Source: Zea mays
Taxonomy: Eukaryota; Streptophyta; Magnoliopsida; Poales; Poaceae
Assembly (NCBI RefSeq): GCF_902167145.1
Contig: NC_050098.1
Location: 31,614,501-31,678,500, forward strand
Length of the DNA stretch: 64,000 nt
Direction: 5' to 3'
Under the pieces are notes generated by a model. It made no database searches, was not told where the DNA came from, and saw only the letters and a list, made by a program, of their open reading frames with translations. Made by a program: the position numbers and the translations under genes. Numbering within the stretch: the stretch's first letter is position 1; the number at the start of each line of letters is the position of its first letter. This document shows, in pieces, positions 16,855-56,706 of the stretch.

Positions 16855-17085
16855 CATGGTCATCCCTCGCTCCGTGTCTGAGGCGGCTGTGAACCCTTCG
16901 AGGGCCAGCCTACGAACCCCTGATCAGTAGTGGGCGCGGAGCCCGAGTAGCCTGAGGCGGCCGTTGAACCCTTCCGAGGGGCCGGCCTTCGAACCTCTGA
17001 CCAGTAGTGGGTGTGGAGCCCACGCGCTCTGAGGCGGCTGTTAAACCCCTCCGAGGGGCCAGCCTTCGAACCTCTGATCAGTAGG
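16855..17085. repeat. 77-bp tandem repeat, 3 copies (element C 3' region)
   Basis: Units end in GAACC(C/T)CTGATCAGTAG-type sequence; the CTGA(T/C)CAG mark recurs at 16920, 16997 and 17074. The same repeat occurs reverse-complemented in element D at 54043-54256, so it is a family feature of the 3' region and not a local accident. Confidence 0.85.
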
Positions 17086-17224
17086 GAGGCTCGGAGCCTG
17101 TTTCCTTCACGGAGAAGGATCCTTTTCGGGGTATCCCCCTTTCCCGGTCCCTGTTGTAAGAGAGATAAAGAGGAAAAGGAAAAGGATACAAAATCGATTG
17201 GCGTGGCGTACCTTTTTTAGACGC

Positions 17225-22046: not shown

Positions 22047-23318
22047 CTAGATGATCTCCCCCAGGGGGAAGGATGACACCACAGTCACCGGATGAGACTC
22101 GAAGTAGTGTCGCAACTTCCGCCGCGTCAGGATCACCGCGTATAGCAGCTTTTGAACTTGTGGGTAGCGGATCTTGGTCTCGGACAGTACCTCGCTGATG
22201 AAGTAGACTGGCCTCTGGACGGGCAATGCATGCCCCTCTTCTCGTCTCTCAACCACAATCGTGGCGCTAACCACCTGAGTGGTCGCGGCGACATAGATCA
22301 AGAGGGCTTCTCCGGCAGCGGGGGGCACCAAGATGGGCGCATTCGTGAGGAGCGCCTTCAGGTTCCCGAGGGCTTCCTCGGCCTCAGGGGTCCAAGTGAA
22401 GCACTCAGCCTTCCTTAAGAGGCGGTACAGAGGCAGGCCTCTTTCGCCGAGGCGTGAGATGAAGCGGCTCAGAGCCGCAAGACATCCCATGACTCTCTGT
22501 ACGCCCTTCGAGTCCTTGATGGGCCCCATGCTGGTGATGGCTGCGATCTTCTCCGGGTTGGCTTCGATGCCCCGCTCGGAGACGATGAACCCCAAGAGCA
22601 TGCCTCAGGGTACCCCGAGGACACACTTTTCGGGATTGAGCTTCACGCCTTTCGCCTTGAGACATCGGAATGTCACTTCAAGGTCGGAAAGGAGGTCGGA
22701 GGCTTTCCTCGTCTTGACTATGATGTCATCGACTTAGGCCTCGACCGTCCGGCCAATGTGTTCACCGAGCACATGGTTCATGCTCCGCTGGTACGTCACA
22801 CCCGCATTCCTCAAGCCGAACGGCATGGTGACATAGCAGTACATGCCGAAGGGCATGATGAAAGAAGTCGCGAGCTGGTCGGACTCCTTCATCCTGATTT
22901 GGTGATACCCTGAGTAGGCATCGAGGAAAGACAGGGTTTCGCACCCAGCAGTGGAATCCATGATTTGATCGATGTGAGGTAGAGGGTAGGGAACCTTCGG
23001 ACATGCTTTGTTTAGACCAGTGTAGTCTACACACATCCGCCATTTCCCTCCTTTCTTTCTCACAAGCACAGGGTTGGCAAGCCATTCGGGATGGAATACC
23101 TCTTTGATGAACCCTGCCGCCATTAGCTTGTGGATCTCCTCGCCTATGGCTCTGCGCTTTTCTTCGTCGAATCGACGTAGAGGCTGCTTGACGGGTCGGG
23201 CTCCAGCTCGGATATCCAGCGAGTGCTCGGCGACATCCCTCGGTATGCCGGGCATGTCCGAGGGACTCCACGCGAAAACATCGGCGTTTGCGCGGAGAAA
23301 GTCGACGAGCACTGCTTC
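22047..23318 (-). pseudogene. Reverse transcriptase and first RNase H of element C
   Basis: Opens with FLRANADVFAWSPSDMPGIP, then GKWRMCVDYTGLNKACPK, FLDAYSGYHQI and MPFGLRNAG. The catalytic YVDD motif is destroyed: the tyrosine codon is TAA (22734-22736 on the plus strand reads TTA), leaving stop-VDDI. A further stop near 22604 lies before LLGFIVSERGIEANP. The RNase H part (ALLIYVAATTQVVSATIVVE, RHYFESHPVTVVSSFPL) ends at TAG 22047. It is homologous to the region deleted from element D. Confidence 0.9.
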
Positions 23319-24178
23319 CTATTTGGGGTCGAGCTCGGAGCCGATCCGGATCTGCTTGGAGGCGTCGCTGCTGGGGTCGAGGGGGACGGATTTTACCGTC
23401 TCCGCTGGCTCGAAGTTGCCGGCGTGGCGCTTCACGTCTGGCACCTCCTTAGAGAGGCTCTCCAGGTCGGCGATGAGGGCCTCAGATTCGGCGAGGGCCT
23501 CGGCATACTCCACGCACTCGACGTCGCATTCGAATGCGTGTCGGTACGTGGGGCCGATGGTGATGACCCCGTTGGGGCCCAGCATTTTGAGCTTGAGGTG
23601 GGTGTAGTTGGGGACGGCCATGAACTTCGCGTAGCATGGCCTCCCCAATACTGCGTGGTAGGTTCCTCGGAACCCGACCACCTCGAACGTGAGGGTCTCC
23701 CTTCGGAAGTTGGAGGGTGCTCCGAAGCAGACGGGAAGGTCGAGTTGTCCGAGGGGCTGGACGCGCTTCCCGGGGATGATCCCGTGGAAAGGCGCAGCGC
23801 CTGCCCGGACCGAGGACAGATCAACACGCAGGAGCCCGAGGGTCTCGGCGTAGATGATGTTGAGGCTACTGCCTCCGTCCATGAGGACCTTGGTGAGCCT
23901 GACGTCGCCGATGATGGGGTCGACAACGAGCGGGTATTTCCCCGGGCTCGGCACGTGGTCGGGGTGGTCGGCTTGGTCGAAGGTGATGGGCTTGTCGGAC
24001 CAGTCTAGGTAGACTGGCGCCGCCACCTTCACCGAACAGACCTCCCGACGCTCTTGCTTGCGGTGCCGAGTCGAGGCATTCGCCGCTTGCCCACCGTAGA
24101 TCATGAAGCAGTCGCGGACCTCGGGGAACTCTCCTGCCTGGTGATCTTCCTTCTTGTCGTCGTCGCGAGCCCTGCCAC
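23319..24178 (-). pseudogene. Aspartic protease region of element C
   Basis: Landmarks are DCFMIYGGQAAN, the active-site VLMDGGSSLNIIYAETL and YHAVLGRPCYAKFMAVPNY. The frame is open until TAG at 23319-23321, and RT continues in the same frame beyond it. The upstream end is cut by the solo LTR inserted at 24179, which separates it from gag by 3 kb. Confidence 0.88.
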
Positions 24179-24211
24179 TGTAAAGCCTAAAATTGAAAAA
24201 AATAATAATAA

Positions 24212-24244
<33 letters not shown>

Positions 24245-27218
24245 ATAAAGTCATCATGATTAGTGCCCTTGATAAACGTTTGAACTTTAGAATTCACTCT
24301 TTATAAAGTTGATGCTCATAATAGAATAATATTAGCTAAATCATAACCTAATTAAGAGTAGACATTGGAAAATGTTTTCTGTCAAAACAAAGAGGGTTAA
24401 GAACATTGGAATATACCTTTAATTTAACTACACACCTAAAATAATATTCTATTAGAATAAGAAGGTGTGAATCTCATGTTGAAAGTATTACCTAAAATAA
24501 AATAATAATACTAAATAAAGTAATTAAATAGATTAGTATAATTATTGCACATTATGGAATTCCATTTGTGCATTAGACTTGAATTGAGAGCAGATTTGGG
24601 ATTCAAATTTGAATTAAAAATAGAAAGGAAAGCAATAGATAAAAAAAGAGAAACTCGCTGCCTGGGCCGATTTTTCCTTCCCCGGCCCACCTCCATTGTT
24701 TCCCTGCATCGGCCCAATTGCATTCTCCTCCCCCGCAGCCCAGCAGACCGTTTTCGCGCCTGGCTCGGTCGGTGGTTGTACCACTGTGCTGAGGACCCCA
24801 CATGTCATCCCTTTCTTCCTCCCCTCACCGTAACAAATGAGCGTGGAGCTCGGGCCGTTGCAACGGCCATGCTATTTCCCCGCCGAGATCCTCTCCGCTG
24901 ACCGGAACAAAACCCATCGGGTTGGGAGTATAAAACCGGCGCCCTGCAACCACCATCTTCGGATCGCGTCGCGGAGTGGGGAAGCTGGGGGTGGGTCACC
25001 GTGTGGAGCGTTGAAGAACGGAGCACGGGAGAAGATTGCAGCCGCCATGAACATCGGTCGGGGCCACGTCTCTAGCCGTGGAAGGGAGACCGGGAGCGTC
25101 GCCTGGACATGGGGAAGCGATTCCTACCACTGAATCATCGAGTGGGTGGCTGGAGCTAGACCAATGGCTCGACGGAGCAATTGGCGCCGCCGTGGATCGC
25201 TCCACACCGTGGCCGAGGGCCACCCCAACTTCAACCACTGGTAAGCCACCTTGATCCAGACCACTCGGATTCCCTCCTCGCGTTGCACCGACCTCGGGTG
25301 TGAATGGGGTAGTCAAGCGCGGTGGCGGGATCAAGCCGTCGTGTCCGCCGCGGCGGAGCTACGGGAGCCGCCCGGAGTCGTCCTGGGAGAAAGAAAATGC
25401 TCTGGGACCGTTGATGCAACCATCTGCGGCCGGGATATGTCCAGAAAAAGCTAAACATCGAACCGTTGGATCTGGATCGTATGGGTTAGGGCAGGCGCGG
25501 TTTAGATGGATCGGCTTCCAATCCGAACCGTTAATCTGGCGCGTCTGTTTTTAATCGGACGGCTCTGAGTGCACGATACCCTTTCGGCCATGATCTTTTG
25601 CATATGAGCCCCTAGGTTTTTCTTAAATCAACCCGCCGTCCATATGGGGGCTAGCCTGTGTCTGGGAACTTTTGCAGAGTAGCCCCTAGCCTTTTGTTTA
25701 TTCATGCGCTCGGTCCAGAACACTTTGGATATTCAGAAATTAATAAAGAAATAGGTTTTTAGTATAAGAATAAATCCATAAACTTGTTTAATCCGTATTT
25801 AATTCATTCTAACTCCGAATTGACCCATTCCAGTTTCTATAATTTTGTATTAATTTTGTTTATCACCTAGTACCTTTGTTTAACCATGAAACTTGAATTA
25901 AAATTGCTCAATGAAATTAATCTATTCTAGGTGTTAAATAATTTCAGAAATTCATAACTCAATATCTGTAACTCCGTTTTAATCCATTCTAGTTGAATTA
26001 GTCTCACAATAATATTTATTATTATTTGGTAACTTTGTTTTGTCATGTGATATAGATTAAAATATTGCACTTAGTCTATTATATACTTAACCACGTGGAT
26101 CTTCGAAAAACCATAACTTCTTAACCGTAGCTCCGAATTTAGCGATACTCGAACCCTCGATCCCGTAGCACATGTAGATTATTATTACGCAGTTTATTCT
26201 TATGGTTGGTGTAATGTTAATTTTGCCTATACACTGTTTGTTTGTAATGCTACGACTAGCGTGAGGACACGTGTCATCTGAAGAGCAAGTTGGTACCTGG
26301 AATCTCAAGTCCCAGGCAAGTTGTGCCCTTGATCACTTCTTTTACCCACTCATGTTCTAATTAATCATAATGATCTGCATAGGTTAATTTTGATGGGACC
26401 CAATAGGTTACCCTAGTTTGATTATCTTTATACCTTGTTTACCACTGAACTTTTTGGGTAGTACTTGCTAATGCTTTATGTGGTTTTGGGTATGAAGATA
26501 CATTATTCATGATCACACTTTTATTATCTGTTTATTATCACTGTTCATGATAAGATCATTATGTTAATTGGAACATGGAGCGACCACCCGGGAAAACAGT
26601 GCTACCACAAGGGTTTATGGACGCCCTTGGCTGATTAATTAGGAAAGCTAGTGGAGGACTACCTTACCCGAAAGGGGCAAGGGCAGTAGGGGAGTGGTCA
26701 GTGTAGGGAGGTCCTTGGTTGATTTTGCTGCGATGGCGGTCAGGCAAGAACCCTGCATTGGATAGCGGGTTTTCTGAAGCTAGTGGAACTTTGTAAAGGC
26801 CTCGTAGTGTTACCCTGCCTCGCCTCCTCGGTAGAGGTGTATGGAAAGTCGTGATCCCTTGGCAGATGGGTAACATGACTTGTGGGTAAAGATGCGCAAC
26901 CTCTGCAGAGTGTAAAACTGGTATACTAGCCGTGCTCACGGTCATGAGCAGCTCGGACCCTCACATGATTAATTTATGGAATTAAATTCAATTTGTCATA
27001 TGCATTGCTGGACCGTTGTCTCCCAGTCAACTTTGGGTTGCTGGACCATTGTCTCCTTATAATGTAATTGTTTATTTTGTACAAAACTTCTATTATATAG
27101 TAAAGATGTGACATTCGATCCTGTGTCATGATTCATCATATGTGTGAGACTTGGTCCCAGCACACCTGGTGATTATGTTCGCACACGGGTCTTGGTGCCC
27201 CGAAACCCGGGTGTGACA
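24179..27218 (+). mobile_element. Solo LTR, 3040 bp, nested in element C (TSD GCCAC)
   Basis: Begins TGTAAAGCCT and ends CCCGGGTGTGACA, with GCCAC on both sides (24174-24178 and 27219-27223). The intact target can be read in element D (48650-48665), which proves the insertion. No coding sequence, primer site or internal region is present. Plus-strand orientation is suggested by GAGTATAAAACC at 24928-24939 and by the terminal GGGTGTGACA typical of Tekay/Del chromovirus LTRs. The GC-rich centre and AT-rich flanks are one unit. It most likely formed by recombination between the two LTRs of a full element. Confidence 0.88.
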
Positions 27219-27223
27219 GCCAC

Positions 27224-29612
27224 CCTCCGCGGGTGGCCCGGCCCTGTGGAAGTGGCGCCGAAGCATAGTGCACTCCTCAAGGGTGTGCTTGATGGGCCCC
27301 TGATGATAGGGGCACGGCTCCTTGAGCTTCTTGTCGAAGAGGTTGGCACCTCCGGGGGGTTTCCGAGGGTTCTTGTACTCGGCGGCGGCGACAAGGCCCG
27401 CGTCAGCGGCGTCGCGTTTCGCTTGCGACTTCTTCTTGCCGTTCTTCTTGGCGCCGCGCTGAGTTGATGCCTCGGGGGCATCTTCCGGTGGGCGGCCCTG
27501 GGGCTGCTTGTCCTTCCGGAAGATAGCCTCAACCGCCTCCTGGCCAGAGGCGAACTTGGTGGCGATGTCCATCAGCTCGCTCGCCCTGGTGGGGGTCTTG
27601 CGACCCAGCTTGCTCACCAGGTCGCGGCAGGTGGTGCCGGCGAGGAACGCGCTGATGACATCCGAATCGGTGATGTTGGGCAGCTCGGTGCGCTGCTTCG
27701 AGAATCGCCGGATGTAGTTCCGGAGAGACTCTCCTGGCTGCTGTCGGCAGCTTCGGAGGTCCCAGGAATTCCCAGGGCGCACGTACGTGCCCTGGAATTT
27801 GCCGGCGAAGGCTTGGACCAGGTCGTCCCAGTTGGAGATCTGCCCCGGAGGCAGGTGCTCCAACCAGGCGCGAGCGGTGTCGGAGAGGAACAGGGGGAGG
27901 TTGCGGATGATGAGGTTGTCATCATCCATTCCACCCAGTTGGCAGGCCAGCCAGTAGTCTGCGAGCCACAGTTCCGGTCTCGTCTCCCCCGAGTACTTTG
28001 TGATAGTAGTCGGGGTTCAAAACCGGGTTGGGAACGGCGCCCGTCGTATGGCGCGGCTGAAAGCCTGCGGACCGGGTGGCTCGGGCGAGGGGCTCCGATC
28101 CTCCCCACTGTCGTAGCGTCCCCCACGCCTGGGGTGGTAGCCTCGGCGCACCCTCTCATCGAGGTGGGCTCGATGGTCGAGGTGATGGTGCTCGTTGCTG
28201 AGGCGACCCGGGGCCGCAGGCGCTGTGTTGCGCGTGCGCCCGGTGTGGACCAAGGCTTCCCGCATGAATCGGGAAGTCGCGGCGCGATGTTCCGAGGGGT
28301 ACCCCTGCCTTCGGGAGGCGGAGCTTTCGGCCCGTCGGACCGCGGCGCCCTCCAGGAGATTCTTGAGCTCTCCCTGGATTCGCCGCCCCTCGGTGGTTGA
28401 TGGCTCCAGCATCACGCGGAGAAGCATTGCCGCTGCAGCCAGGTTCTGACCGACCCCACTGGAAGCGGGTGGCGGCCTTACCCTGACATCGTCGGCGATG
28501 CGGTGCTGGATACCCTGGGGTAGATGACGCATTTCTCCGGCCGGAGGTTGGCCCACCCATTCCTGCCCGACGTCCCGGCGGATCGGCTCAAGTGTTCCTG
28601 CTCCCTCGTCGAGCCTGGCCGGCACCCCGCGGATTTGCTCGAGCTGTGGGTCATGACCCCCCGCCGGAACGGGGACCACAGCTAGCTCCCGTAGGATGTC
28701 AACGCGAGGCACAGGCCTAGGGAGATCACCGTTCTCCGGCATACCAAGATGGTTGCCTTCGGAGGGATCCCCTAGATCGACGTGGAAACATTCACGACTT
28801 GGGCCGCAGTCCTCGTTGCCGAGGCTGCAGCTACCATCGGAACAGTCAGAAAGGCAGTAGCCGCATGCGGTCATGAAGTCCCGCATGGCACTGGGGTTAC
28901 CAAGTCCAGAGAAGTCCCAATAGAAGTCGGGTTCGTCATCTTCCTCGGACCCCGAGGGCCCGTAGGTCGAGACGTCTGTCAGCCGGTCCCAGGGTGACCG
29001 TATGCGATACCCCAGAGGGTTCGGACTCGCCTCTACGAGAGCGTCCGCCAAAGCGAAGCCGCCTGGCGGGTCGAGGCTGAATCCAAGAGGCGTGAGATGG
29101 AAATCGGTTGGTACCTCTTGGTCGACGGGCAGTGATGAAGTCACGTCAGGGACTGACTGCACCGTCGTCTCAGGTATGAGGGTGACGCCCAGGAAGCCTT
29201 TCGCGAGCGTGCTGGTGTCGTCCGTTTGCTTGGAATTGGCGTGTTGCGGAGAGACGGCGCTCGTCTTCGTCTCAAATGCGAGGTCGATGCCCGACGCGCC
29301 CCCCGTTGGGGCGCCGGCGCCGTCAACTTGCTCGACAGCCGACGAGGTGCCGCCTCCTGCTTGGCCTTGGTTGCCCCACCTCCTCCTCCGTCGGCGGGGG
29401 AGAGGGCGGGGTGAGCTCGAATGTTGTTCTTCCACCACGCTGGGAAGACGTCATCGATTCCGCCGCCGGCGGGCGGGCTGTCGGCCGCCATTATCGCTGT
29501 CGCACGGCGGGGGAAGGAGTATCATGTCGTAGCTGCCGTCAAGGGACATGAACTCAAGACTCCTGAAATGGAGCACCGTCCTGGGCTGGAAAGGTTGCTG
29601 GAGACTGCCCAT
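27224..29612 (-). pseudogene. gag of element C
   Basis: Start ATG at 29612 by alignment with element D. A long disordered N-terminal half (SPWDRLTDVSTYGPSGSEED, CGYCLSDCSDGSCSLGNED) precedes the capsid core (LWLADYWLACQLGG, ARAWLEHLPPGQISNWDDLV, GESLRNYIRRFSKQ) and a zinc-knuckle-like CPYHQGPIKHTLEEC. TGA at 28017-28019 replaces a CGA codon that is intact in D; another TGA near 29450 likewise replaces CGA. It ends at the inserted LTR. Confidence 0.88.
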
Positions 29613-29672
29613 CTGGAGCTTGACGGGAAGTTGTTCGTCAACACGCAGCAGGCCCCTACCTGGCGCGCCAAC

Positions 29673-31401
29673 TGTCGGCGTTTCGAGACCGGGGGGTCCC
29701 TGGGCCGACGAGTAAAATGTCGCCGCATGCCCCAGCCCAGATGGGTCGGCGCGAGACGGAGCGCGAAGGGGGGAAAAGGCAGCCGGAGAGAGAGGGAGGT
29801 GGAAATCCCGCGGCCTTCGTGTTTGTCCCGCGCCCAGGTCAGGTGCGCTTGCAGTAGGGGGTTACAAGCGTCCACGCGGGAGAGGGAGCGAGCGGCCTCA
29901 CGCGAGCGCCTATCCCGTCCTCTTCCCCGCGCGGCCAACCCTCTGTAAGAGGGCCTTGGTCCTTCCTTTTATAGGCGCAAGGAGAGGATCTAGGTGTACA
30001 ATGGGGGTGTAGCAGAGTGCTAACGTGTCTAGCGGAGGAGAGCTAGCGCCCTAAGTACATGCCATCGTGGCAGCCAGAGAGGTTTTGGCACCCAGTTCGT
30101 GTGGTGTCGTGGCCGTCGGAGGAGCGCTGGAGCCTGGCGGAAGGACAGCTGTCAGGGCTGTTGAGTCCTTGCTGACGTCCTCTTGCTTCCGTAAGGGGGC
30201 TGAGAGCCGCCGTCGTCATAGAGCGTGCGGGGTGCCATCATTACTTGTCTGGCGGAGCGAGCCAGATGGGATGCCGGTCTTGTTCCCTGTAGCCTGAGTC
30301 AGCTTGGGGTAGGGTAATGATGGCGCCTCCTGTTGACGTGGTCGGTCCGCGCCCTAGGTTGGGCGATGTGGAGGCTCCTCTGAAGTCGAGGTCGAGTCTG
30401 TCTTCCGTGGCCGAGGTCGAGTCCGAGCCCCTGGGTCGGGCGAGGCGGAGACCGTCGGCTGAGGCCAGGGCTGAGTCCGAGCCCTGGGGTCGGGCGAAGC
30501 GGAGTTCGTCGTCTTCCGGGGCTGAGCCCGAGTCCGAGCCCTGGGGTCGGGCGGATCGGAGTTCGCCGTCTTCCGGGGCTGAGCCCAAGTCCGAGCCCTG
30601 GGGTCGGGCGGATCGGAGTTCGCCGTCTTCCGGGGCTGAGCCCAAGTCCGAGCCCTGGGTCGGGCGGAGCGGAGTTCAACGTCTTCCGGGGCAGAGCCCA
30701 AGTCCAAGCCCTGGGTCGGGCGGAGCGGAGTTCGTCGTCTTCCGGGGCTGAGCCCGAGTCCGAGCCCTGGGGTCGGGCGGATCGGAGTTCGCCATCTTCC
30801 GGGGCTGAGCCCAAGTCCGAGCCCTTGGGTCGGGCGGATCGGAGTTCGCCGTCTTTCGGGGCTGAGCCCAAGTCCGAGCCCTGGGTCGGGCGGAGCGAAG
30901 TTCGCCGTGGTGCCTGAGGCCGGGCCTGGCTGCCTGTCAGCCTCACTCTGTCGAGTGGCACAGCAGTCGGAGCGGCGCAGGCGGCGTTGTCCTTCTGTCA
31001 GGCCGGTCAGTGGAGCGGCGAAGTGACTGCGGTCACTTTGGCTCTGTCGACTGGGGGATGTGCGTCAGGATAAAGGTGTCAGGCCGCCTTTGCATTAAAT
31101 GCCCCTGCGATTTGGTCGGTCGGCATGGCAATTTGGCCAGGGTTGCTTCTTGGCAAAGACTGGGCCTCGGGCGAGCCGGAAGTTTGTTTGTCGCTGGAGG
31201 GGGGCCTCGGGCGAGACGAAGATCCTCCGGGGTCGGCTGCCCTTGCCCGAGGCTGGGTTCGGGCGAGGCGTGATCGAGTCCCTCGAAAGGACCGATCCCT
31301 GGCTTAGTCGCACCCATCAGGCCTTTGCAGCTTTGTGCTGATGGGGGTTACCAGCTGAGAATTATGAACCTTGAGGATACCCCTAATTATGGTCCCCGAC
31401 A
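29673..31401 (-). repeat. 5' LTR of element C
   Basis: 1729 bp, near-identical to the 3' LTR; sense-strand TATAAAA at 29967-29973 intact; minisatellite of about eight 57-bp units at 30420-30905. The primer-binding region (TTGGCGCGCCAGGTAGGGGCC on the minus strand) abuts it at 29652-29672. Followed by the target duplication GTACT. Confidence 0.92.
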
Positions 31402-31798
31402 GTACTGCTCACTCTCCCAATGCAAACAAGGAGCCTGAAAAAGATGGAGACTTCCTGAATCGCGGTACACACGTATTGTGAAATGTTTATAGATCACTAT
31501 TCTTTGTAGTTGATGGTTCTGGCTCATGTGGAGCTTGTAAATTGTAACTTTGAAATGTAAGCATCTAATTCATATCCTACATTCATCAGCACAATGATAA
31601 AATTGGCTCAATTTTTATTTACTGAAACACAATCACAGTGATCGATGGTTGTGCCAGCAAGCGTGGGCGTGGCGGCGTCCACCGGTGCACCACCAGCGTT
31701 TGGGTGGTGGGTGGAGACATCAGGGCAACGAAGTCGTGGCAGTGATGACGGGGGCCTCGAGGTCGGTGGCCTGCCCCTAGTCCCAATTCGTGGTTCTT
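31402..31798. other. Short host or relic sequence between C and the copia-like element
   Basis: About 400 bp, contiguous with 14427 before element C inserted. On the minus strand CACTCTCCCAATGC... precedes the possible fragment described at 14268-14427, but no gene can be assigned. The 31630-31790 part is GC-rich and contains nothing I recognise. Confidence 0.4.
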
Positions 31799-44540: not shown

Positions 44541-46213
44541 TGTCGGGGACCATAATTAGGGGTACCCTCAAGACGCCTAATTCTCAGCTGGTAACCCCCA
44601 TCAGCATAAAGCTGCAGAGGCCTGATGGGTGCGATTAAGTCAGGGATCAGTCCATACGAGCGACTCGATCACGCCTCGCCCGAGCCTAGCCTCGGGCAAG
44701 GGCAGCCGACCCCGAGGGGTTTCCGTCTCGCCCGAGGCCCCCCTTTTTAACGGCGGACACATCTCCGGCTCGCCCGAGGCTTTGCCTTCGCTAAGAAGCA
44801 ACCCTGACTAAATCGCCGCGCCGACCGACCGAGTCGCAGGAGCATTTAATGCAAAGGTGGCCTGACACCTTTATCCTGACGCGCGCCCCCCGGCAGAGCC
44901 GAAGTGACCACCGTCACTTCGCCGCTCCACTGACCGGTCTGACAGAAGGACAGCGCCGCCTGCGCCACTCCGACTGCAGTGCCACTTGACAGAGTGAGGC
45001 TGACAGGCAGTCAGGCCTTGCCAAAGGCGCCATAGGAAACTCCGCTCCACCCGACCCAGGGCTCGGACTCGGGCTAGGCCCCGGAAGACGGCGAACTCCG
45101 CTCCGCCCGACCCAGGGCTCGGACTCGGGCTAGGCCCCGGAAGACGGCGAACTCCGCTCCGCCCGACCCAGGGCTCGGACTCGGGCTAGGCCCCGGAAGA
45201 TGGCGAACTCCGCTCCGCCCGACCCAGGGCTCGGACTCGAGCTAGGCCCCAGAAGACGACGAACTCCGCTTCGCCCGACCCAGGGCTCGGACTCGGGCTA
45301 GGCCCCAGAAGACGACGAACTCCGCTTCGCCCGACCCAGGGCTCGGACTTGGGCTCAGCCCCAGAAGATGACGAACTCTGCTTCGCCCGACCCTAGGGCT
45401 CGGACTCCGCCCTGGCCTCTGCCGAACGACCTCCGCCTCGCCCGACCCAGGAGCTCGGGCTCGGCCTCGGCCATGGAAGACAGATTCGACCCCGGCTTCG
45501 GAGGAGCCTCCACGTCGCCCGACCTAGGGCACAGGCCCGCCACGTCAACAGGAAGCGCCATCATCACCCTACCCCGAGCCGACTCGGGCCGCAGAGAACA
45601 AGACCGGTGTCCCATCCGGCTAGCTCCGCCAGATAGGCAATGATGGCGCCCCGCTAGCCCTGTGACGACGGCGGCTCTCAGCTCCCTTACGGAAGCAGGG
45701 GGACGTCAGCAAGGACCCAACCGCTCCGATAGCTGTCCCTCCGCCAGGCTCCGTTGCTCCTCCGACAGCCACGACATCACACCAGCAGGGTGCCAAGATC
45801 TCTCCGGCTGCCACATTGGCATGTACCTAGGGCGCTAGCTCTTCCCCCGCTAGACACGTAGCACTCTGCTACACCCCCATTGTACACCTGGATCCTCTCC
45901 TTACGCCTATAAAAGGAAGGACCAGGGCCTTCTTAGAGAAGGTTGGCCGCGCGGGGACGAGGACGGGACATGCGCTCTCTTGGGGCCGCTCGCTTCCCTC
46001 ACCCGCGTGGACGCTTGTAACCCCCTACTGCAAGCGCACCCGACCTGGGCGCGGGACGAACACGAAGGCCGCGGGATTTCCACCTCTCTCACGCCCGTCT
46101 CCGGCCACCTCGCTTCCCCCCTTCGCGCTCGCCCACGCGCTCGACCCATCTGGGCTGGGGCACGCGGCACTCACTCGTCGGCTTAGGGACCCCCCGGTCT
46201 CGAAACGCCGACA
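44541..46213 (+). repeat. 5' LTR of element D
   Basis: TGTCGGGGACC...GCCGACA, 1673 bp, TATAAAA at 45908-45914. Includes a 56-bp minisatellite (45036-45430) whose GAACTCCGCT mark recurs at 45093, 45149, 45205, 45261, 45317 and 45373: seven units. Confidence 0.94.
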
Positions 46214-46235
46214 GTTGGCGCGCCAGGTAGGGGCC
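46214..46235 (+). promoter_or_regulatory. Primer-binding region of element D
   Basis: GTTGGCGCGCCAGGTAGGGG directly after the LTR. The same sequence, with small changes, abuts the 5' LTRs of A, B and C, so it marks the tRNA priming site of all four. I do not assign the tRNA. Confidence 0.75.
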
Positions 46236-46273
46236 TGCTGCGCGTTGACGAGCAGTTTCCCATCAAGCTCCAG

Positions 46274-48699
46274 ATGGGCAGTCTCCGACAACCTCTCCAA
46301 CCCGGGACGGTGCTCCGTTTCGGGAGTCTTGAGTTCATGTCCCTCGACGGCAGCTACGACATGATACTCCTTCCACCGCCGCGCGACAACGACAATGGCG
46401 GCCGACAACCCGCTCGCCGGCGGCGGAATCGACGACATCTTCCCCGCGTGGTGGAAGAACGACATTCGAGCTCGCCCCGTCCTCTCCCCCGCCAACGGAG
46501 GAGGAGGCGGGGCAACCAAGGCCAAGCGGGAGGTCACGCTTCGTCGGCTGTCGAGCGAATCGACGCCCCCAGCGCACCTACGGGGGGCGCGTCGGGCGTC
46601 GACCTCGCGTTTGAGACGAAGGCGAGCGCCGTCCCCCCGCGACACGCCAATCCCGAGCAAGTGGACGATGCCAGCACGCTCGCGGAGGGCCTGCAGGACG
46701 TCGCCCTCGTACCTAAGACGACGACACGATCAGTCCCCGACGTGACTATGTCGCTCCTCGTCGGCCAAAAGGTACTGACTGATTCCCATCCTACGTCATT
46801 TCGACTCGGCCTCAACCCGCCTAGCGACCTCGCTTTGGCGGGCGCTCTCGTTGAGGCGAGTGCAACCCCTCTGGGGTTTCGTATGCGGTCGCCTTGGGAC
46901 CGATTGACGGACGTCTCGACCTATGGGCCCTCTGGGTCCGAGGAAGATGACGATCCCAGCATCTGTTGGGATTTCTCTGGATTTGGCAACCCCAGTGCCA
47001 TGCGAGACTTTATGACCGCATGTGACTACTGCCTCTCCGACTGTTCCGACGGTAGTCGCAGCCTTGTCGACGAGGACTGCGGCCCAAGCCGCGAATGTTT
47101 CCACGTCGAGCTAGGGGATCCCTCCGAAGGCAACCATCTCGGCATGCCGGAGGACGGTGATCTCCCTAGGCCGGTGCCTCGCGCTGACATCCCGCGGGAG
47201 CTAGCTGTGGTCCCCGTTCCGGCGGGGGGTCACGACCCACAGCTCGAGCAAGTCCACGGGGTGCAGGCCAGGCTCGACGAGGGAGCAGGAGCGCTCGAGT
47301 CAGTCCGCCGGGACGTCGGGCAGGTATGGGCGGGCCAACCCCCGCCCGGAGAAATACGTCACCTGCCCCAAGGTTTCCAGCACCGCGTCGCCAACGACGT
47401 CAGGGTCAGGCCGCCACCCGCATCCAGCGGGGTCGGTCAGAACCTGGCAGCCGCAGCGATGCTCCTCCGCGCGATGCCGGAGCCATCAACCACCGAGGGT
47501 CGGCGAATCCAGGGAGAGCTCAAGAATCTTCTGGAAGGCGCTGCGGCCCGATGGGCCGAGAGCTCTGCCTCCCGAAGGCAGGGATACCCCTCGGAACCTC
47601 ATGCCGCGACTTCCCGATTCATGCGGAGAGCCTCGACCTACACCGGGCGCACGCGCAACACCGCGCCTGCGGCCCCGGGCCACCTCGGCAACGAGCACCA
47701 TCGTCACGACCGTCGGGCCCACCTCGACGAAAGGGTGCGCCGAGGCTACCACCCCAGGCGTGGGGGACGCTACGACAACGGGGAGGATCGGAGTCCCTCG
47801 CCCGAACCACCCGGTCCACAGGCCTTCAGTCGGGCCATCCGACGGGCGCCGTTCCCGGCCCGGTTCCGACCCCCGACTACTATCACAAAGTACTCGGGGG
47901 AAACGAGACCGGAACTGTGGCTCGCGGACTACCGCTTGGCCTGCCAACTGGGTGGAACGGACGACGACAACCTCATCATCCGCAACCTCCCCCTGTTCCT
48001 CTCCGACACTGCTCGCGCCTGGTTGGAGCACCTGCCTCCGGGGCAGATCTCCAACTGGGATGATTTGGTCCAAGCCTTCGCCGGCAATTTCCAGGGCACG
48101 TACGTGCGCCCCGGGAATTCCTGGGACCTTCGAAGCTACCGGCAACAACCGGGAGAGTCTCTTCGGGACTACATCCGGTGATTCTCGAAGCAGCACACTG
48201 AGCTGCCCAACATCACCGACTCAGATGTCATCGACGCGTTCCTTGCCGGCACCACCTGCCGTGACCTGGTGAGCAAGTTGGGTCGCAAGACCCCCACCAG
48301 GGTGAGCGAGCTGATGGACATCGCCACCAAGTTCGCCTCTGGCCAGGAGGCGGTCGAGGCCATCTTCCGAAAGGACAAGCAGCCCCAGGGCCGCCCGTCG
48401 GAAGAGGCTCCCGAGGCGTCTACTCCGCGCGACGCCAAGAAGAAAGGCAAGAAGAAGTCGCAAGCGAAACGCGACGCCGCCGACGTGGACCTTGTCGCTG
48501 CCGCCGAGTACAAGAACCCTCGGAAGCCCCCGGAGGTGCTAACCTCTTCGACAAGATGCTCAAGGAGCCGTGCCCCTACCATCAGGGGCCCGTCAAGCAC
48601 ACCCTCGAGGAGTGCGTCATGCTCCGGCGCCACTTCCACAAGGCCGGGCCACCCGCAGAGGGTGGCAGGGCCCGCGACGACGACAAAAAGGAAGATCAC
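46274..48699 (+). pseudogene. gag of element D
   Basis: ATG at 46274, 60 bp after the LTR. The frame is open for 635 codons through the disordered N-terminal half and most of the capsid domain (ARAWLEHLPPGQISNWDDLV). It is then broken by TGA at 48179-48181, where element C has CGA. The same frame resumes (SKQHTELPNI, KLGRKTPTRVSELMDIATKF) until a one-base deletion of a C near 48530. The zinc-knuckle-like CPYHQGPVKHTLEEC follows in the shifted frame. A second open frame (46395-46745, MAADNPLAGGGIDDIFPAWW) overlaps the N-terminus and is also present in C, so the true N-terminal frame is uncertain. Confidence 0.88.
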
Positions 48700-48702
48700 T
48701 AA

Positions 48703-49521
48703 GCAGGAGAGTTCCCTGAGGTCCGCGACTGCTTCATGATCTACGGAGGGCATGCGGCGAATTCCTCGGCTCGGCATCGCAAGCAAGAGCGCCGGGAGGT
48801 CTGCTCGGTGAAGGTGGCGGCGCCAGTCTACCTAGACTGGTCCGACAAGCCCATCACCTTCGACCAAGCTGACCACCCTGACCACGTGCCGAGCCCGGGG
48901 AAATACCCGCTCGTCGTCGACCCCTTCGTTGGTGACGTCAGGCTCACCAAGGTCCTGATGGATGGGGGCAGCTGCCTCAACATCATCTACGCCGAGACCC
49001 TCAGGCTCCTACGCGTCGATCTGTCCTCCGTCCGAGCAGGCGCTGCGCCCTTCCACGGAATCATTCCTGGGAAGCGCGTCCAGCCCCTCGGACGGCTCGA
49101 CCTTCCCGTCTGCTTCGGAACACCCTCCAACTTCCGAAGGAAGATTTTGACGTTCGAGGTGGTCGGGTTCCGAGGGACCTACCACGCGGTATTGGGGAGG
49201 CCATGCTACGCGAAGTTCATGGCCGTCCCCAACTACACCTACCTGAAGCTCAAGATGCCGGGCCCCAACGGGGTCATCACCGTCGGCCCCACGTACAAAC
49301 ATGCGTTCGAATGCGACGTGGAGTGCGTGGAGTACGCCGAGGCCCTCGCTGAGTCCGAGGCCCTCATCGCCGACCTGGAGAACCTCTCCAAAGAGGTGCC
49401 AGATGTGAAGCGACATGCCGGCAACTTCGAGCCAGTGGAGACGGCTAAGACCGTCCCCCTCGACTCCAGTGGCAACACCTCCAAGCAGATCCGGATCGGT
49501 TCTGAGCTCGGCCCCAAGTAA
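48703..49521 (+). pseudogene. Aspartic protease region of element D
   Basis: Follows a TAA at 48700-48702 (C has Gln there). The frame is open to TAA at 49519-49521 with VLMDGGSCLNIIYAETL as active-site motif and YHAVLGRPCYAKFMAVPNY. Very close to element C, but the stop at its end is TAA, not TAG. Confidence 0.88.
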
Positions 49522-49818
49522 GAAGCAGTGCTCGTCAACTTTCTCCGCGCGAACGCCGACGTTTTCGCGAGGAGTCCCTCGGGCGTGCCCGGCGTACCAA
49601 GGGATGTCGCCGAGCACTCGCCGGATATTCGGGCAGGAGCCCGACCCGTCAAATGGCCTCTGCGCGGATGACACCCGGGGGCTGCGCACACCCCCGGGAA
49701 AGGCCGCTTGTCATCGTCGACGTTCTGGAGCCCGGAACGCACAAGCTGGCCGGCGGTCAAGGCGGGGTCGACAGCAACGCTTGGAACGTCCGACAGCTAC
49801 GTCGCTTCTACCCTTAAG
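49522..49818 (+). pseudogene. Fused ends of pol across a large deletion (element D)
   Basis: 49522-49668 encodes the RT entry (FLRANADVFARSPSG ... ARPVKWPLRG). 49693-49818 encodes the very end of pol (ERPLVIVDVLEPGTHKLAGG ... VRQLRRFYP, TAA). The roughly 3.2 kb found between these points in element C are absent. Confidence 0.88.
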
Positions 49819-50275
49819 ACGTTTTCAAGCTGTTCGTACACCTCGCTCCCGCACAATTTTCAGTCATCAAGGAAGGGCCGGCCTCGCCTCGGCAGAGCCC
49901 GACCCTCCCTCGGGGGCTAAAAAGGGGGAGCCTCCCTGCGTACCTCTCCGCGTCCAAAATTTTCGATAAAAAAGGCTTTTTGCGTTCTCCCGGCTATATC
50001 AGAAGCAGGGCCCCAAGGAGCAAACGTGGGTGCATGTAAGTGGCAAGGCCGACTGGGCCGAGGGATTCCTATGCCTCAGGGTCAAGGACACCCTCACTCG
50101 TCACCCGCCACGAAAAATGACCCCTGCTCGGGAAGCCGCCCTGTTATTGATGAACAAAGTCGGACACGCAAAATAAAAGGAAGAGTACGACTTCATGCAA
50201 TAGAAGCAAAGTGTTCAGGCCTCGGCGGCCACAGGAGGACGCGCGCACGTCCAACAGAAACTGGTCCACCAAGAG
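49819..50275. other. Spacer between pol end and the antisense gene's stop codon
   Basis: Non-coding; holds one copy (about 50045-50105, reversed) of the block repeated three times in the element C 3' region. It would contain the 3' UTR of the antisense gene. Confidence 0.5.
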
Positions 50276-53200
50276 TTAGGCGTCGCCTTGGGAAGGAGCC
50301 GCGCCTTCAGCTCCGTCTCCGCCTTCGGTGAGGTCCATCTCGGCTTCCGGCGACGGCGCAGGGGGGAGGATTTCCGCCTCAAAGGTGGTCGCCAGCACTG
50401 CGCTCGGACCCGCGGCGACCGCGTCGAGCCGCTGGATTTCCGCCAGGGCAGCTTCGTCTTTGTCAGGAAGACAATACCCCTCGCTAACCCGCTCTAGGTC
50501 CACAACGTAGTGGGAAGCGAGCACGGCGAAGGCCCGCCTGACGCCGTGGTGTAGCGCCTCGCGGAGCCTGCCGCGCGCGTGATCACCCAAGGCTTGAAGG
50601 CGGCTTTGAGGGGAGCTTCCTGAGGGGACGTCGCCGGAGCCAAGGACCCGATAAACGTCCGAGATGGCTTCGGACATGGCCGCCAAGTCGGCTTCCCTCT
50701 GCTCGGCCGCCCCGGCAAGCGCCTCGGCAAGCGCCTTGGCGGACTCCTCGAGGGCGGACTCGAGCTCTGCGAACAACCAGAAGAAAAACCTCAAACACAA
50801 GCAGAGGAAACAAACAAGAGCAAGAACCAAGGATGGTCAAGGCTTACCCCCGGCCCGGGCACGCTGCTCCGAGGTAGCGGCCTGGGCCGCGGCTAAGTCG
50901 GCCGCGAGGGCGTCGGCCCTGCTTTCGGCCTCGGCAGCCCGACCCCGAGATCGGTCCCGCTCCTCGACGACCTGGACGAGCTCCGATCGATGCCGTTGCA
51001 CCTCTACGCGCGCCGCGGCCACCTCCGTGCGCGCCGCTGCCGCCTCGGCTCTCAGGTCAGTGCAGAGCAACTGGAGGTCCGCTACCTCGGCACCCTGCTG
51101 AGAAAGGCGCGCGGTGGCCCTGGCGAGCGAGGTCCTCAGGGACCGCAGCGAACCCCAGACATCGACTTCGCGGCGGATGAACGACGACTTGGCGGCGCTC
51201 CGACCCGACAGATCCTGAGGAAAGGAAGCGGGGCGTCACGAAGAACGCCTCGGTCACAGAAGAAAAACAAAGGTATGCCCGAAACCATTACCTGGAGGAT
51301 TTTGGGGACGTCCCCGCAGAAAACCTCCAGCAACGACCGAAGCGACCCCACCGTTGCTTCGGCACGCTCGCGGAGCTCGTCCCAGGACTGGTCCTCCCGT
51401 TCATCATCGAGAACGAAGACGGGGTCCGAGGCCTCACGGGTCCGGAACCGGAGCACCTGGCGCTGGACCTCGGGGCTCCGCCGCACAGCGACGAGGCCGT
51501 CGCCCGACAGGACGAATCGTGCCTCCCCGCCCGCCTCTTCCGAGGCACCGGGCGCCGACATATCAGCCGACTCGGCGTCGGCAGCAACCGGTCGCTCCTC
51601 GACCGGGACGGCGGCGACTACGGTAGCGACAGGCGCCAGCATGGCCGGCACGACCGGTGGGCTCAGGACCACGTCGGCGTCAGCCGCCTCTCCAATCACA
51701 ATGGCCGCCTCGGCAGAGGAGCCGGCCTCGGGAACCTGCTCCACGGCGACCGGCGTCGTCTGAGCCCCCTGAGGTGGAACGCCGGGCGAGAGGGCCGGTT
51801 GAACGGCAAGGCCCGAAGCGGCGCTGGCCGCACAAGCCGGCGTCGTCTTAAGTGCCTTCCGGGGTGCCAGGTCGGTCAGACCGTGGCTCCGCTTGCTAAG
51901 GAGAAAAGAAAAATCACGGCCAGAACCTATGAATGGAAAGCCAGGACGAAGACATTCCGAGATACTTACCCGCTCCGGGCCATGACCCACCGTGCCCGGG
52001 GGGAAGTCTCTTGGATCCCGGCCCCCGGAACCGCCGCCGAAGCCCGCTTCACAGGCAGCTTCGGCGCCGCCCTCGCTTCAGGCACCTGGGGAGCAGACGC
52101 CCTGGCCTGGTCCTCCGGGGTCACCTCGGCTCCTCCAGCCGAGGTGTCAGGAGCCCTCTCGGGTTGCCCTTGCCCCTCAGGCCGGGACCCTGACGCCCCG
52201 ACTCCGGGGACTAACGACGTCGGCTCGCTCGGGGGCTGGCTCGACGGCTCCTGACCAGACCCCAAGCCGGGGCTGAGGCCAAGGCGGGCGGCTACGTCGT
52301 CCTCCTCGTCATCGTCTTCATCATCATCGTCGTCGGGTGTCTCCGGCGACGGCTCCCTTGGGAGTCCTTCCCTCTCCTGCTGGCGACGGCGCTTCTCCAA
52401 AGCGTCCCGAGCCTGCCTCCGCTCGTGGGCCCGGGCCTTCTCCGCGTCCTTCTTCTTCTTCTCCTCCGCGGCGACCCGCCGCGCTGCTCGGTCCGCCGCG
52501 TCCTCCGGGACCCGTGGCAGGGAGGGCTTGTGCCACCCCACCTCCTAAAGAAGGGGGGAAAGAAACCCGATCGTAAGAACCCGGAGCAACCCGATGTATG
52601 AATAAGGAAGGAGCAAACACTCACCAGAGTTACGCACCCCTGGTCGGGGCGCATCCGAAGCTGGGAGAAGGCGTGGGAGTCCGACTTCCCCATCGCGGCC
52701 GACACCCGCCATTGGAGGGCGTCAAAGGGAAGAGGATCAGGGGACATTCGTGACCCCTCCCAGTCAGCCTCCGGGGTCATCTCCCAAAGCGGCAGCCGCC
52801 GCTCCGCCAAGGGAAGCACCCTTCGACGGTGGATGGCGGCAACCACTCCCGCAGCAGTGAGTCCCCCCTCCCGCAACGCCTTCAGGGCCTGGAGAAGGGG
52901 TTCGAGGTTCTTCTGTCTCTCGTGCGGGGTCCCATGACGCCAGGCGTCGGTGGCGGCGGTGACTACCCGCTGGGAGAACGGTGGGAGCAACTCACCGTCA
53001 TTCCGGAGGTAGAACCACCGCCGCTGCCACCCCTTGTTCGAGGATGCGAGGATGGCAGGGATGTACTGCGACGCCCGCGACTGCCTCAGCAAGAGGGTGC
53101 AGCCGCCGGCCCGCACCGCTGCACGGACCTTCCTCTTCCCTGTCGGCAAGGCAAAAAGCTCGGCGAAGAAGAGATGAGTCCACAAATCCCAATGGGGGGC

Positions 53201-53542
53201 AATCCCCAAATACCCTTCGCACACCGCTACGAAGATAGCGGCCTGCGAGATGGAGTTGGGGGTGAGGTTATGCAACTCCACCCCATAGTGGAACAGGATT
53301 GCCCGCATAAAGCGGCCCGTCGGCACGCCGAATCCCCGCTCGTGGAAGGAGACGAAGCTCACGACGTACCCCGGCGGTGGGGATGGAGCGACTCCGCCCA
53401 TGGGAGGAATCCATTCTGGCCGCTGCTTATCGGTGAGGGGACGGAGCAAACCCTCGCCGACCAGATCTTCTAGGTCGCTCGCCGTCACCGTGGAAAGGGG
53501 ACATGGATCACGCGGTGGAATGATGGTCACCCGCTCAGCCAT
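50276..53542 (-). CDS. Antisense five-exon gene of element D, Transposase_28-like protein
   Basis: Exons on the minus strand: 53542-52625, 52544-51970, 51895-51292, 51214-50848 and 50766-50276, total 2955 nt, 984 residues plus TAA. The four introns are 80, 74, 77 and 81 bp, all GT-AG, and phases agree at every junction. ATG at 53542 opens MAERVTIIPPRDP. Residues about 20-300 carry the Transposase_28 (PF04195) pattern: VSFVSFHERGFGVPTGRFMR, HNLTPNSISQAAIFVAVCEG, SNKGWQRRWFYLRND. Residues about 325-365 are strongly basic (EEKKKKDAEKARAHERRQAR) and about 372-385 are almost all Asp/Glu. Residues about 700-880 form a long coiled coil rich in Ala, Glu and Arg, followed by HGVRRAFAVLASHYVVDLER. Function unknown; a nuclear DNA- or RNA-associated role is only a guess from composition. 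It runs against the element's sense transcription and is free of stops, although gag-pol of the same element is wrecked. Confidence 0.82.
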
Positions 53543-53680
53543 CACCAAGCAAAAGGGGATGGCGGCGCGAAGGGCAGGAAGGGCGGTTCTCTCTTCTCTG
53601 GCTAGATCTCTCGGGTTGTGAAAACCTAAGGGGCAGGCAGGAAGCGGAGCAAAGAACCGTCACCGGGCCCTCTCTGGGGG

Positions 53681-53688
53681 ATATAAAG
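53681..53688 (-). promoter_or_regulatory. AT-rich box upstream of the antisense gene
   Basis: Minus strand CTTTATATCC, about 140 bp before the ATG at 53542, inside a GC-rich stretch homologous to the area ahead of CCTTTAAAAGG in element C. A weak TATA candidate; the plus strand (ATATAAAG) is an equally good box in the opposite direction. Confidence 0.3.
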
Positions 53689-54042
53689 ACCAAGGCGAGG
53701 ACGGTTCCAACGTTCCGCCCGGACCGGATGCGGAATTCAAAAACGCGAAGCGAAACGGCCGCTCCTCAAACGGCTCGCGCACGCGTAACGGCGGCCCCGC
53801 CAACTACTCGCCCCGTCGCATTAACTCCGCGACTGGACAGGCGGCGCTTCTGGCAGGAGCAACGGGCGACGCTTCGCCTTCGCCGGAACAACCGCGCCAA
53901 AAAAGGTACGCAGCGTCGTTCGGTTTCATATCCTTTTTCCTTTTTTCCTCTTTCTCTATCTCTTGCAACAGGGACCGGGAAAGGGGGATACCCCGAAAGG
54001 GATCCTTCCCCGTGAAGGAACCAGGCTCCGAGCCCCCCCCTA

Positions 54043-54256
54043 CTGATCAGAGGTTCGAAGGCTGGCCCTCCGAGGGGTTCAACAGTCGCCTCAGATCGCG
54101 TGGGCCCTACACCCACTACTGGTCAGAGGTTCGAAGGTCGGCCCCCCGAAGGGCTCCACGGCCGCCTCAGGCTACTTGGGCTCCGCACCCATTACTGATC
54201 AGGGGTTCGAAGGCTGGCCCCCGAAGGGTTCACAGTCGCCTCAGACGCCGAGCGAG
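54043..54256. repeat. 76-bp tandem repeat, 2.8 copies (element D 3' region)
   Basis: Units start at 54043, 54119 and 54195 with CTG(A/G)TCAGAGGTTCGAAGG. Reverse-complement homologue of the 77-bp array of element C. Confidence 0.87.
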
Positions 54257-54978
54257 GGATGACCAGGGGTACGTTCGATACATAACCAAGGCTCGGGCTG
54301 CGCTCTCGAGGTACCCTAGGACATTTCCGAGACCAGCGGGAGCGATCTTGTAACGGAATCCCATCGGAGGGAGGCATCGAGCCCTCGGACCCCGTCGCCA
54401 GGGGACCGGGTCCAGCAGATCACCCGCAGGTACTTTTGGGTGTGCCTCTGGGCCCCTAGCCGACCCCTAACGAACGGGGCACGAACGTCCACCCGGATCA
54501 CCCGCTTGCAGCTCACCGGAGACACCATGTTCGGTGCCCATCGAGGGTAACATGGCGCTCTCCCCCCCTCCTCCTTGCGGAAAGGCGACGTAGGGGCGTA
54601 TGTAAAAAAGCCGAGTCTGTCCCTGATCGCCCTCTCGCCCTGTGCGGAGGCTCGGGGGCTGCTCTCGCAAACCCGGCTCCGACCAAACCGTTGACAGCTT
54701 CAACATACTAGCCCGAGAACTTGGGCCCCGACCGTGCACCCGGGCTACGGCCAGTTCGCATGAGGGAACCACCAGACCAGCCGAAGCATTACGCAAGGCA
54801 TTAAGACCTCGAAGGAGTGAAACCACTCCTCCGAGGCCTCGGGGGCTACACCCGGCGGGTGCGCTCGCGCGCACCCACCAGAACAAAATGCAACCGAGAA
54901 AGGCTGGTCCCCTTGCAAAAAAGTGCGACGAAAGCCTCCAAGCGAGTGCTAACACTCCCTTCGAGGCTCGAGGGCTAC

Positions 54979-56706
54979 TGTCGGGGACCATAATTAGGGG
55001 TACCCTCAAGACGCCTAATTCTCAGCTAGTAACCCCCATCAGCATAAAGCTGCAGAGGCCTGATGGGTGCGATTAAGTTAGGGATCAGTCCATACGAGCG
55101 ACTCGATCACGCCTCGCCCGAGCCTAGCCTCGGGCAAGGGCAGCCGACCCCGAGGGGTTTCCGTCTCGCCCGAGGCCCCCCTTTTTAACGGCGGACACAT
55201 CTCCGGCTCGCCCGAGGCTTTGCCTTCGCTAAGAAGCAACCCTGACTAAATCGCCGCGCCGACCGACCGAGTCGCAGGAGCATTTAATGCAAAGGTGGCC
55301 TGACACCTTTATCCTGACGCGCGCCCCCCGGTAGAGCCGAAGTGACCGCCGTCACTTCGCCGCTCCACTGACCGGTCTGACAGAAGGACAGCGCCGCCTG
55401 CGCCACTCCGACTGCAGTGCCACTTGACAGAGTGAGGCTGACAGGCAGTCAGGCCTTGCCAAAGGCGCCATAGGAAACTCCGCTCCGCCCGACCCAGGGC
55501 TCGGACTCGGGCTAGGCCCCGGAAGACGGCGAACTCCGCTCCGCCCGACCCAGGGCTCGGACTCGGGCTAGGCCCCGGAAGACGGCGAACTCCGCTCCGC
55601 CCGACCCAGGGCTCGGACTCGGGCTAGGCCCCGGAAGACGGCGAACTCCGCTCCGCCCGACCCAGGGCTCGGACTCGGGCTAGGCCCCGGAAGACGGCGA
55701 ACTCCGCTCCGCCCGACCCAGGGCTCGGACTCGGGCTAGGCCCAGAAGACGACGAACTCCGCTTCGCCCGACCCAGGGCTCGGACTCGGGCTAGGCCCCA
55801 GAAGACGACGAACTCCGCTTCGCCCGACCCAGGGCTCGGACTCGGGCTCAGCCCCAGAAGATGACGAACTCTGCTTTGCCCGACCCTAGGGCTCGGACTC
55901 CGCCCTGGCCTCTGCCGAACGACCTCCGCCTCGCCCGACCTAGGAGCTCGGGCTCGGCCTCGGCCATGGAAGACAGATTCGACCCCGGCTTCGGAGGAGC
56001 CTCCACGTCGCCCAACCTAGGGCACAGGCCCGCCACGTCAACAGGAAGCACCATCATCACCCTACCCCGAGCCGACTCGGGCCGCAGAGAACAAGACCGG
56101 TGTCCCATCCGGCTAGCTCCGCCAGATAGGTAATGATGGCGCCCCGCTAGCCCTGTGACGACGGCAGCCCTCAGCTCCCTTACGGAAGCAGGGGGACGTC
56201 AGCAAGGACCCAACCGCTCCGACAGCTGTCCCTCCGCCAGGCTCCGTTGCTCCTCCGACAGCCACGACATCACACCAGCAGGGTGCCAAGATCTCTCCGG
56301 CTGCCACATTGGCATGTACCTAGGGCGCTAGCTCTTCCCCCGCTAGACACGTAGCACTCTGCTACACCCCCATTGTACACCTGGATCCTCTCCTTACGCC
56401 TATAAAAGGAAGGACCAGGGCCTTCTTAGAGAAGGTTGGTCGCGCGGGGACGAGGACGGGACAGGCGCTCTCTTGGGGCCGCTCGCTTCCCTCACCCGCG
56501 TGGACGCTTGTAACCCCCTACTGCAAGCGCACCCGACCTGGGCGCGGGACGAACACGAAGGCCGCGGGATTTCCACCTCTCTCACGCCCATCTCCGGCCA
56601 CCTCGCTTCCCCCCTTCGCGCTCGCCCACGCGCTCGACCCATCTGGGCTGGGGCACGCGACACTCACTCGTCGGCTTAGGGACCCCCCGGTCTCGAAACA
56701 CCGACA
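54979..56706 (+). repeat. 3' LTR of element D
   Basis: 1728 bp, TATAAAA at 56401-56407, preceded by the purine-biased GAGGCTCGAGGGCTAC. The minisatellite (55473-55923) has eight units, one more than in the 5' LTR, which accounts for the 55-bp length difference. Confidence 0.94.

Follow-up and report, generated by a model that had tools for sequence, protein, structure and literature searches.

In this study, we investigated a stretch of 64,000 nucleotides from the genome of Zea mays (NC_050098.1, positions 31,614,501 to 31,678,500; hereafter the window), in which a long terminal repeat (LTR) retrotransposon, element D, carries a predicted gene of 984 codons on its minus strand. From the sequence, it is very probable that this is a real, spliced, multi-exon protein gene, lying antisense between the deleted pol region and the 3' LTR of the element. 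We observed conserved exon frames, conserved splice sites and purifying selection in the sampled copies of one genome, a 2.18-Gb assembly of 655 contigs (C1-C10, 152-308 Mb), with the window at C3:31614501-31678500.

The predicted spliced antisense gene and its introns

The minus-strand exons of 918, 575, 604, 367 and 491 nt add up to 2955 nt, that is, 984 codons and a TAA stop, and are separated by four GT-AG introns of 80, 74, 77 and 81 bp in phases 0, 2, 0 and 1; this structure, with its matching phases, was reproduced exactly as the original prediction had placed it. Exon 1 (52625..53542) encodes amino acids (aa) 1-306, including the Transposase_28/TRP28 domain at aa 60-127, where PF04195 matched with E 1.3e-19 and a score of 70.6 bits (cut-off 26.2), and is followed by intron 1 (52545..52624). 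Exon 2 (51970..52544) holds a low-complexity region with a basic run and then an acidic run at aa ~329-410, in agreement with the basic/acidic middle claimed earlier, and intron 2 (51896..51969) separates it from exon 3 (51292..51895), a linker with the lowest constraint of the five exons. Beyond intron 3 (51215..51291), exon 4 (50848..51214) is coiled-coil-like, as judged from sequence without a predictor, and intron 4 (50767..50847) leads to exon 5 (50276..50766), which encodes a conserved helical C-terminal region and ends with the TAA at 50278-50276. A sub-threshold match to PF05557 was recorded at aa 698-833 (17.8 bits against a cut-off of 30). On the same strand, a TATA-like TTTATAT (53681..53687) stands ~140 nt upstream of the ATG; it is identical in 16 of the 20 usable copies described below and differs by one base in three, while L052 is non-homologous there.

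To sample the family, 20 copies besides that of the window were fetched from 129 scored exon-1 matches (39,324 candidates); L045 was dropped as unrelated past exon 1, which left 20 usable copies out of the 21 examined (19 and the window copy). All four introns were GT-AG in 20 of the 20 usable copies, as well as in five of five further pol-deleted copies, with lengths across the usable copies of 79-81, 74-92, 68-77 and 81-87 bp for introns 1 to 4. None of the 16 splice-dinucleotide sites was variable, as against 128 of the 293 other intron sites (hypergeometric P 1.4e-4, to be taken as indicative since the copies are related). Six more copies (L069-L074, of which L069, L071 and L072 are clearly diverged) carry the introns at equivalent places, introns 1 and 3 being GT-AG in all six and introns 2 and 4 in five of six each; intron 2 of L071 is absent from the alignment, and the intron-4 acceptor of L069 falls at the alignment edge. 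An intronless sister family, suspected from the lengths of open frames, was rejected, as the fetched loci turned out to be intron-bearing relatives.

As to insertions and deletions among 19 copies, exon 1 had none and exon 5 a single in-frame deletion, and the runs that leave the frame amounted to 4/36 in exon 2, 3/8 in exon 3 and 1/16 in exon 4. In introns 1 to 4, the runs whose length is not divisible by three were 7/7, 8/14, 3/18 and 2/3; runs common to several copies were counted once per copy. The antisense orientation had been claimed to let introns survive in such an element, and this is sound as logic and consistent with all four being kept in 20/20 copies.

With regard to the protein, the predicted structure of exon 1 had a mean predicted local distance difference test (pLDDT) score of 66 and a predicted template modelling (pTM) score of 0.72, and that of exon 5 was helical only, with low confidence (pTM 0.32). 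No Pfam model matched the exon-5 C-terminal region at E<=0.01, a PDB sequence-profile search gave three matches of E 0.51-0.54 at profile positions 745-842 that are not meaningful, and an IMG/VR scan with exon 1 found no relative. The majority line of the C-terminal region, taken over exon 5 and the database proteins P0024-P0032, reads RLREALHxGVxRALAVVxSHY, and its constraint is close to that of the TRP28 exon.

Purifying selection on the predicted frame

The ratio of nonsynonymous to synonymous substitution (dN/dS) was estimated by the Nei-Gojobori method with codon bootstrap, with the window copy compared with L047, L056, L057 and L083. In these four pairs, all codons together gave 0.24-0.30, with upper bounds of at most 0.38, and separately exon 1 gave 0.07-0.15, exon 2 0.30-0.34, exon 4 0.23-0.38 and exon 5 0.15-0.28. 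The bootstrap upper bound stayed below 1 in 19 of the 20 exon-pair tests, with exon 3 against L047 at 0.99; only exon 5 against L083, which had few changes, went above it (1.75). Purifying selection on the predicted frame is clear for exons 1, 2, 4 and 5 and weak for exon 3. The reading of the whole as one spliced antisense frame, proposed in the original prediction, is supported, with selection keeping the frame.

Other readings of the same DNA behaved differently. Over nine pairs and five exons, the predicted frame ranged from 0.07 to 0.64, below the other forward frames save for exon 3 against L047, and the two alternative forward frames had dN/dS of at least 0.57. Among the reverse (sense-strand) frames across the gene, two had values for the most part close to 1 or higher, with a minimum of 0.61 in exon 3, and the third had a low dN/dS, as expected for the mirror of a true frame, with stops in every exon and pair. 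An excess at third positions was found in five exons of five and in none of the introns.

The age of the variants points in the same direction. Among 25 copies, singletons, i.e. variants seen in one copy and mostly post-insertion, had 340 nonsynonymous to 241 synonymous changes (N:S 1.41), and shared variants 213:270 (0.79; Fisher p 2.8e-6), with 16 of the 18 nonsense variants being singletons. By exon, this contrast was significant in exons 1 and 5 and not in exons 2-4 taken alone. The comparison with the sense genes that the original prediction proposed could be made for gag, in one pair, element D and its relative in the window (dN/dS 0.30, 0.22-0.39; dS 0.28). The five-exon value, from copies of one genome, is not near 1, and constraint on the antisense gene is about equal to that on gag.

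Element D, its shared deletion and its relatives

Element D spans 44541-56706, with the target-site duplication CAAAG at both flanks, and is bounded on the plus strand by a 5' LTR of 1673 bp with TG...CA ends (44541..46213) and a 3' LTR of 1728 bp (54979..56706). Alignment of the two LTRs gave 21 differing sites out of 1673, with 55 gap columns besides, and a Kimura two-parameter (K2P) distance of 0.0127; with the LTR dating rate of 1.3e-8, the insertion is about 0.5 million years old. Both LTRs contain 56-bp tandem repeats (45024-45547 and 55462-56040), and the 3' LTR is longer by 55 bp. The gag gene lies on the plus strand and the antisense gene on the minus strand, with its ATG 1437 bp from the start of the 3' LTR, so that this LTR is upstream of it. 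The LTR-terminal motif was also found upstream in six of eight loci, including the window copy, five at an offset of 53-57 and one at 104, and L008 has the motif with a one-base variant. The many exon-1 matches in the genome, 129 scored among the 39,324 candidates, do not fit a domesticated host gene, which would be a single copy outside an element. The host of the gene is best called a Tat/Retand-like LTR retrotransposon; reverse transcriptase (RT) is deleted in the window copy. By size alone, element D is near the Huck family of maize, for which a table in PMC3091746, as we understand its columns, gives an LTR of ~1.8 kb and a length of 11.3 kb.

A relative of element D occupies 14428-31404 on the minus strand of the window, in pieces of ~85-91% DNA identity that were probably broken apart by nested insertions. 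Compared with it, the sense side of element D shows a stop and a frameshift of the kind claimed in the original prediction: the gag region (46187..48736, plus strand, with Retrotrans_gag, PF03732, in the first piece) is interrupted by a TGA at 48179-48181, where the relative has CGA, and in its second piece gag changes frame at about aa 115. The claimed 3-kb deletion is real as well, since the relative holds RVT_1, RNase H and integrase domains at 20265-23312, ~3 kb absent from element D, but it is not private decay. Its junction (~49664..49692, plus strand) is common to at least 39 other copies: a probe of 49300-50300 matched contiguously, at 93-100%, in 40 of the 40 scored places (39 besides the window; 7703 candidates), although the best matches of such a probe are contiguous by nature, and this is evidence for an amplified pol-less group rather than for the pol-lessness of all copies. 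The same deletion in many copies thus marks a non-autonomous (pol-less), amplified LTR family. Consequently, the contrast drawn earlier between broken sense genes and an intact antisense gene is not supported, given also that most of the sampled antisense copies are broken (see below). Since insertion, ~18 changes are expected in 2955 nt, and with 16 nonsense among 581 singleton changes this comes to ~0.5 stops, which makes a single intact copy of ~0.5 million years ordinary.

TRP28 genes also occur in a second maize family (L075-L079; L075 is 33% identical over aa 5-268), in which the gene was read by eye as four exons and three introns, GT-AG in five of five copies despite differences of 25-29% from L075. 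The first of these introns likewise comes after LQ and is possibly the counterpart of intron 3 of the element D gene; this family lacks introns 1 and 2, which probably reflects gain or loss of introns within such elements. Gene models of Miscanthus floridulus and Digitaria exilis are colinear with the predicted protein at junctions 1-3, with no intron-sized insertion, and junction 4, lying in the coiled coil, is uninformative in this alignment. Panicum virgatum and Lolium multiflorum align at 27% and 23% overall, with the C-terminal region only loosely in common. Among P0001-P0023 and most of P0035-P0076 (JGI), many metagenome 'hypothetical proteins' that carry PF04195 resemble plant DNA translated without splicing. 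A weak match to aa 58-113 of the antisense protein (37%, E 0.006), perhaps part of the TRP28 gene of a different element, lies at 7849-8016 on the plus strand of the window.

Competing explanations and biological meaning

Several observations weigh against a spliced and selected gene. The spliced frame is intact in only six of the 20 usable copies, the other 14 having a stop or frameshift, and even this rate is biased upward, because the copies were picked by exon-1 similarity and mostly lacked exon-1 stops. The contrast between exon and intron indels is weak for intron 3. Exon 3 itself is weakly constrained (dN/dS 0.39-0.60 in the four pairs), and its second alternative frame, at 0.57-0.90 over nine pairs, is poorly separated from the predicted frame, at 0.36-0.64; against L047 the alternative frame is even the lower (0.57 versus 0.60), yet with 8 stops, and in general this frame has 8-10 stops in exon 3, compared with 0-1 in the predicted one. 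None of five polyA-type motifs was found within 775 nt past the stop of the antisense gene, and the exon 1 model had no fold match among PDB and viral structures (best E 0.96). The grass models P0027, P0028, P0031 and P0032 are without parts of exon 1. Intron 1 is kept as 26 in-frame codons in 47 of 76 database proteins by a simple pattern, and in others on inspection, so that other lineages leave unspliced readings open.

The last point belongs to an improbable alternative, in which translation is limited to the unspliced TRP28 open reading frame (ORF), i.e. exon 1, at times continuing through intron 1 as far as exon 2, and the frames further downstream are noncoding or short ORFs of their own. 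PMC11963269 does handle them as separate antisense ORFs; if intron 2 is left unspliced, its donor yields an in-frame TAA, at which several database ORFs stop; and in L056-L058, intron 1 is 81 bp long and open in frame. The proteins with a retained intron 1 are mainly JGI contig ORFs. However, the length window of our protein search favoured ORFs that retain the intron. Reading through the 80-bp intron 1 of the window copy shifts the frame; in exon 2, constraint falls on the spliced frame and is weaker or missing in the others, and the spliced frame of exons 4 and 5, behind conserved acceptors, is under constraint as well. An isoform that retains intron 1 in frame is possible in some lineages. 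It is more improbable still that the antisense RNA itself is the product, controlling the element through double-stranded or antisense RNA with incidental coding, a type of regulation proposed in PMC7264820; the gag-like constraint at codon level, the third-position excess in five exons and the 16 of 18 nonsense variants confined to singletons all oppose it. Least probable of all is an artefactual assembly of long frames from GC-rich sequence: the exons are indeed 64-72% GC, with long open frames on both strands, but the invariant splice sites, the frame-dependent dN/dS and the colinear proteins of other grasses contradict it.

For the spliced gene that we prefer, we infer the following course of expression. 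RNA polymerase II would start at the element's own antisense promoter, with its TATA at 53687-53681, and the spliceosome would remove the four short introns. The predicted product of 984 aa would comprise an N-terminal TRP28 domain, the basic/acidic linker, a probable coiled coil and the conserved helical C-terminal region, and may oligomerise through the coiled coil and act as an accessory protein in the nucleus. As the sense genomic RNA would bear only the complements of the introns, these would survive reverse transcription unspliced.

What the protein does can be proposed only tentatively. The likeliest function, though at somewhat less than even chance, would be that of an accessory factor in the nucleus, oligomeric, which acts on the RNA, DNA or transcription of its own element, its benefit being biased to the encoding copy. 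A different and less likely account, compatible with a real gene, is that intact copies supply the protein in trans and pol-deleted copies carry the gene as a passenger. The 14 broken copies out of 20 agree with it, and so does the pattern in L080-L083, which differ from the window copy by 8-12% in exons 1-2 and by 2-6% in exons 3-5 (as retrieved, the sequences of L080 and L083 begin a few bases short of the ATG, hence their odd starts), suggesting possible recombination with other subfamilies that could refresh the gene. On the other side, nine pol-deleted copies had an N:S of 62:98 in shared variants versus 166:126 in singletons (p 2.7e-4; by exon, exon 1 alone significant), and in exons 3-5, the fixed differences between the window copy with L039, L040 and L043 and the group L080-L083 were 11:19 versus 93:61 in singletons (p 0.026). 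A product equally available to all copies would hardly maintain selection in pol-less copies, and we therefore lean towards a cis-biased benefit, with recombination as the caveat. Regarding the earlier suggestion of action in trans for deleted elements, constraint among pol-less copies, if anything, favours benefit to the encoding copy, unless recombination refreshes the gene.

With reference to the literature, antisense TRP28 ORFs in Retand/Tat elements are known, and the new point here, subject to priority, is their splicing into one frame. Ogre elements belong to the Tat lineage. PMC6317226 counts reverse eORFs and mentions splicing for Ogre, likewise a plant Ty3/gypsy element; the introns of element D differ in sitting in the antisense gene. 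According to PMC11963269 (Vicient 2025), antisense TRP28 ORFs are a mark of Retand elements, and the aORF-3R genes described there resemble our gene in having PF04195, in being antisense between pol and the 3' LTR, and in occurring in grasses; that paper also reports antisense ORFs with Smc and Mitotic checkpoint (PF05557) domains, the latter being the sub-threshold match in our protein. The difference is that ORFs of at least 600 bp are counted singly there (104 antisense ORFs in 63 clusters), whereas the pieces are read as exons of one frame here. Grande gene23, with its own antisense promoter and a nuclear product as told in PMC7264820, and the RIRE2 antisense ORF are similar, by description, as antisense accessory genes, and the same review calls for a search for antisense and spliced transcripts. 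The word 'intron' occurs neither in PMC11963269 nor in PMC7264820, and our literature search, which covered titles and the openings of abstracts and did not extend to the 2013 Grande and 2011 Steinbauerova papers, met no account of spliced antisense genes in such elements; the priority of the splicing claim is uncertain.

We consider it about an even chance that the antisense ORFs catalogued one by one in Tat/Retand elements (coiled-coil ORFs such as Smc and mitotic-checkpoint, and TRP28) together form, as its exons, a single old spliced gene, carried antisense through the RNA life cycle and selected even in pol-less families because the protein favours the encoding copy. If this is true, the antisense ORFs listed so far without explanation for these abundant plant elements would become one protein with a definable domain order, corrected gene models and a testable function. 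Moreover, introns that persist through reverse transcription would mark the expressed strand, and spliced reads would be clear proof that the antisense gene is expressed.
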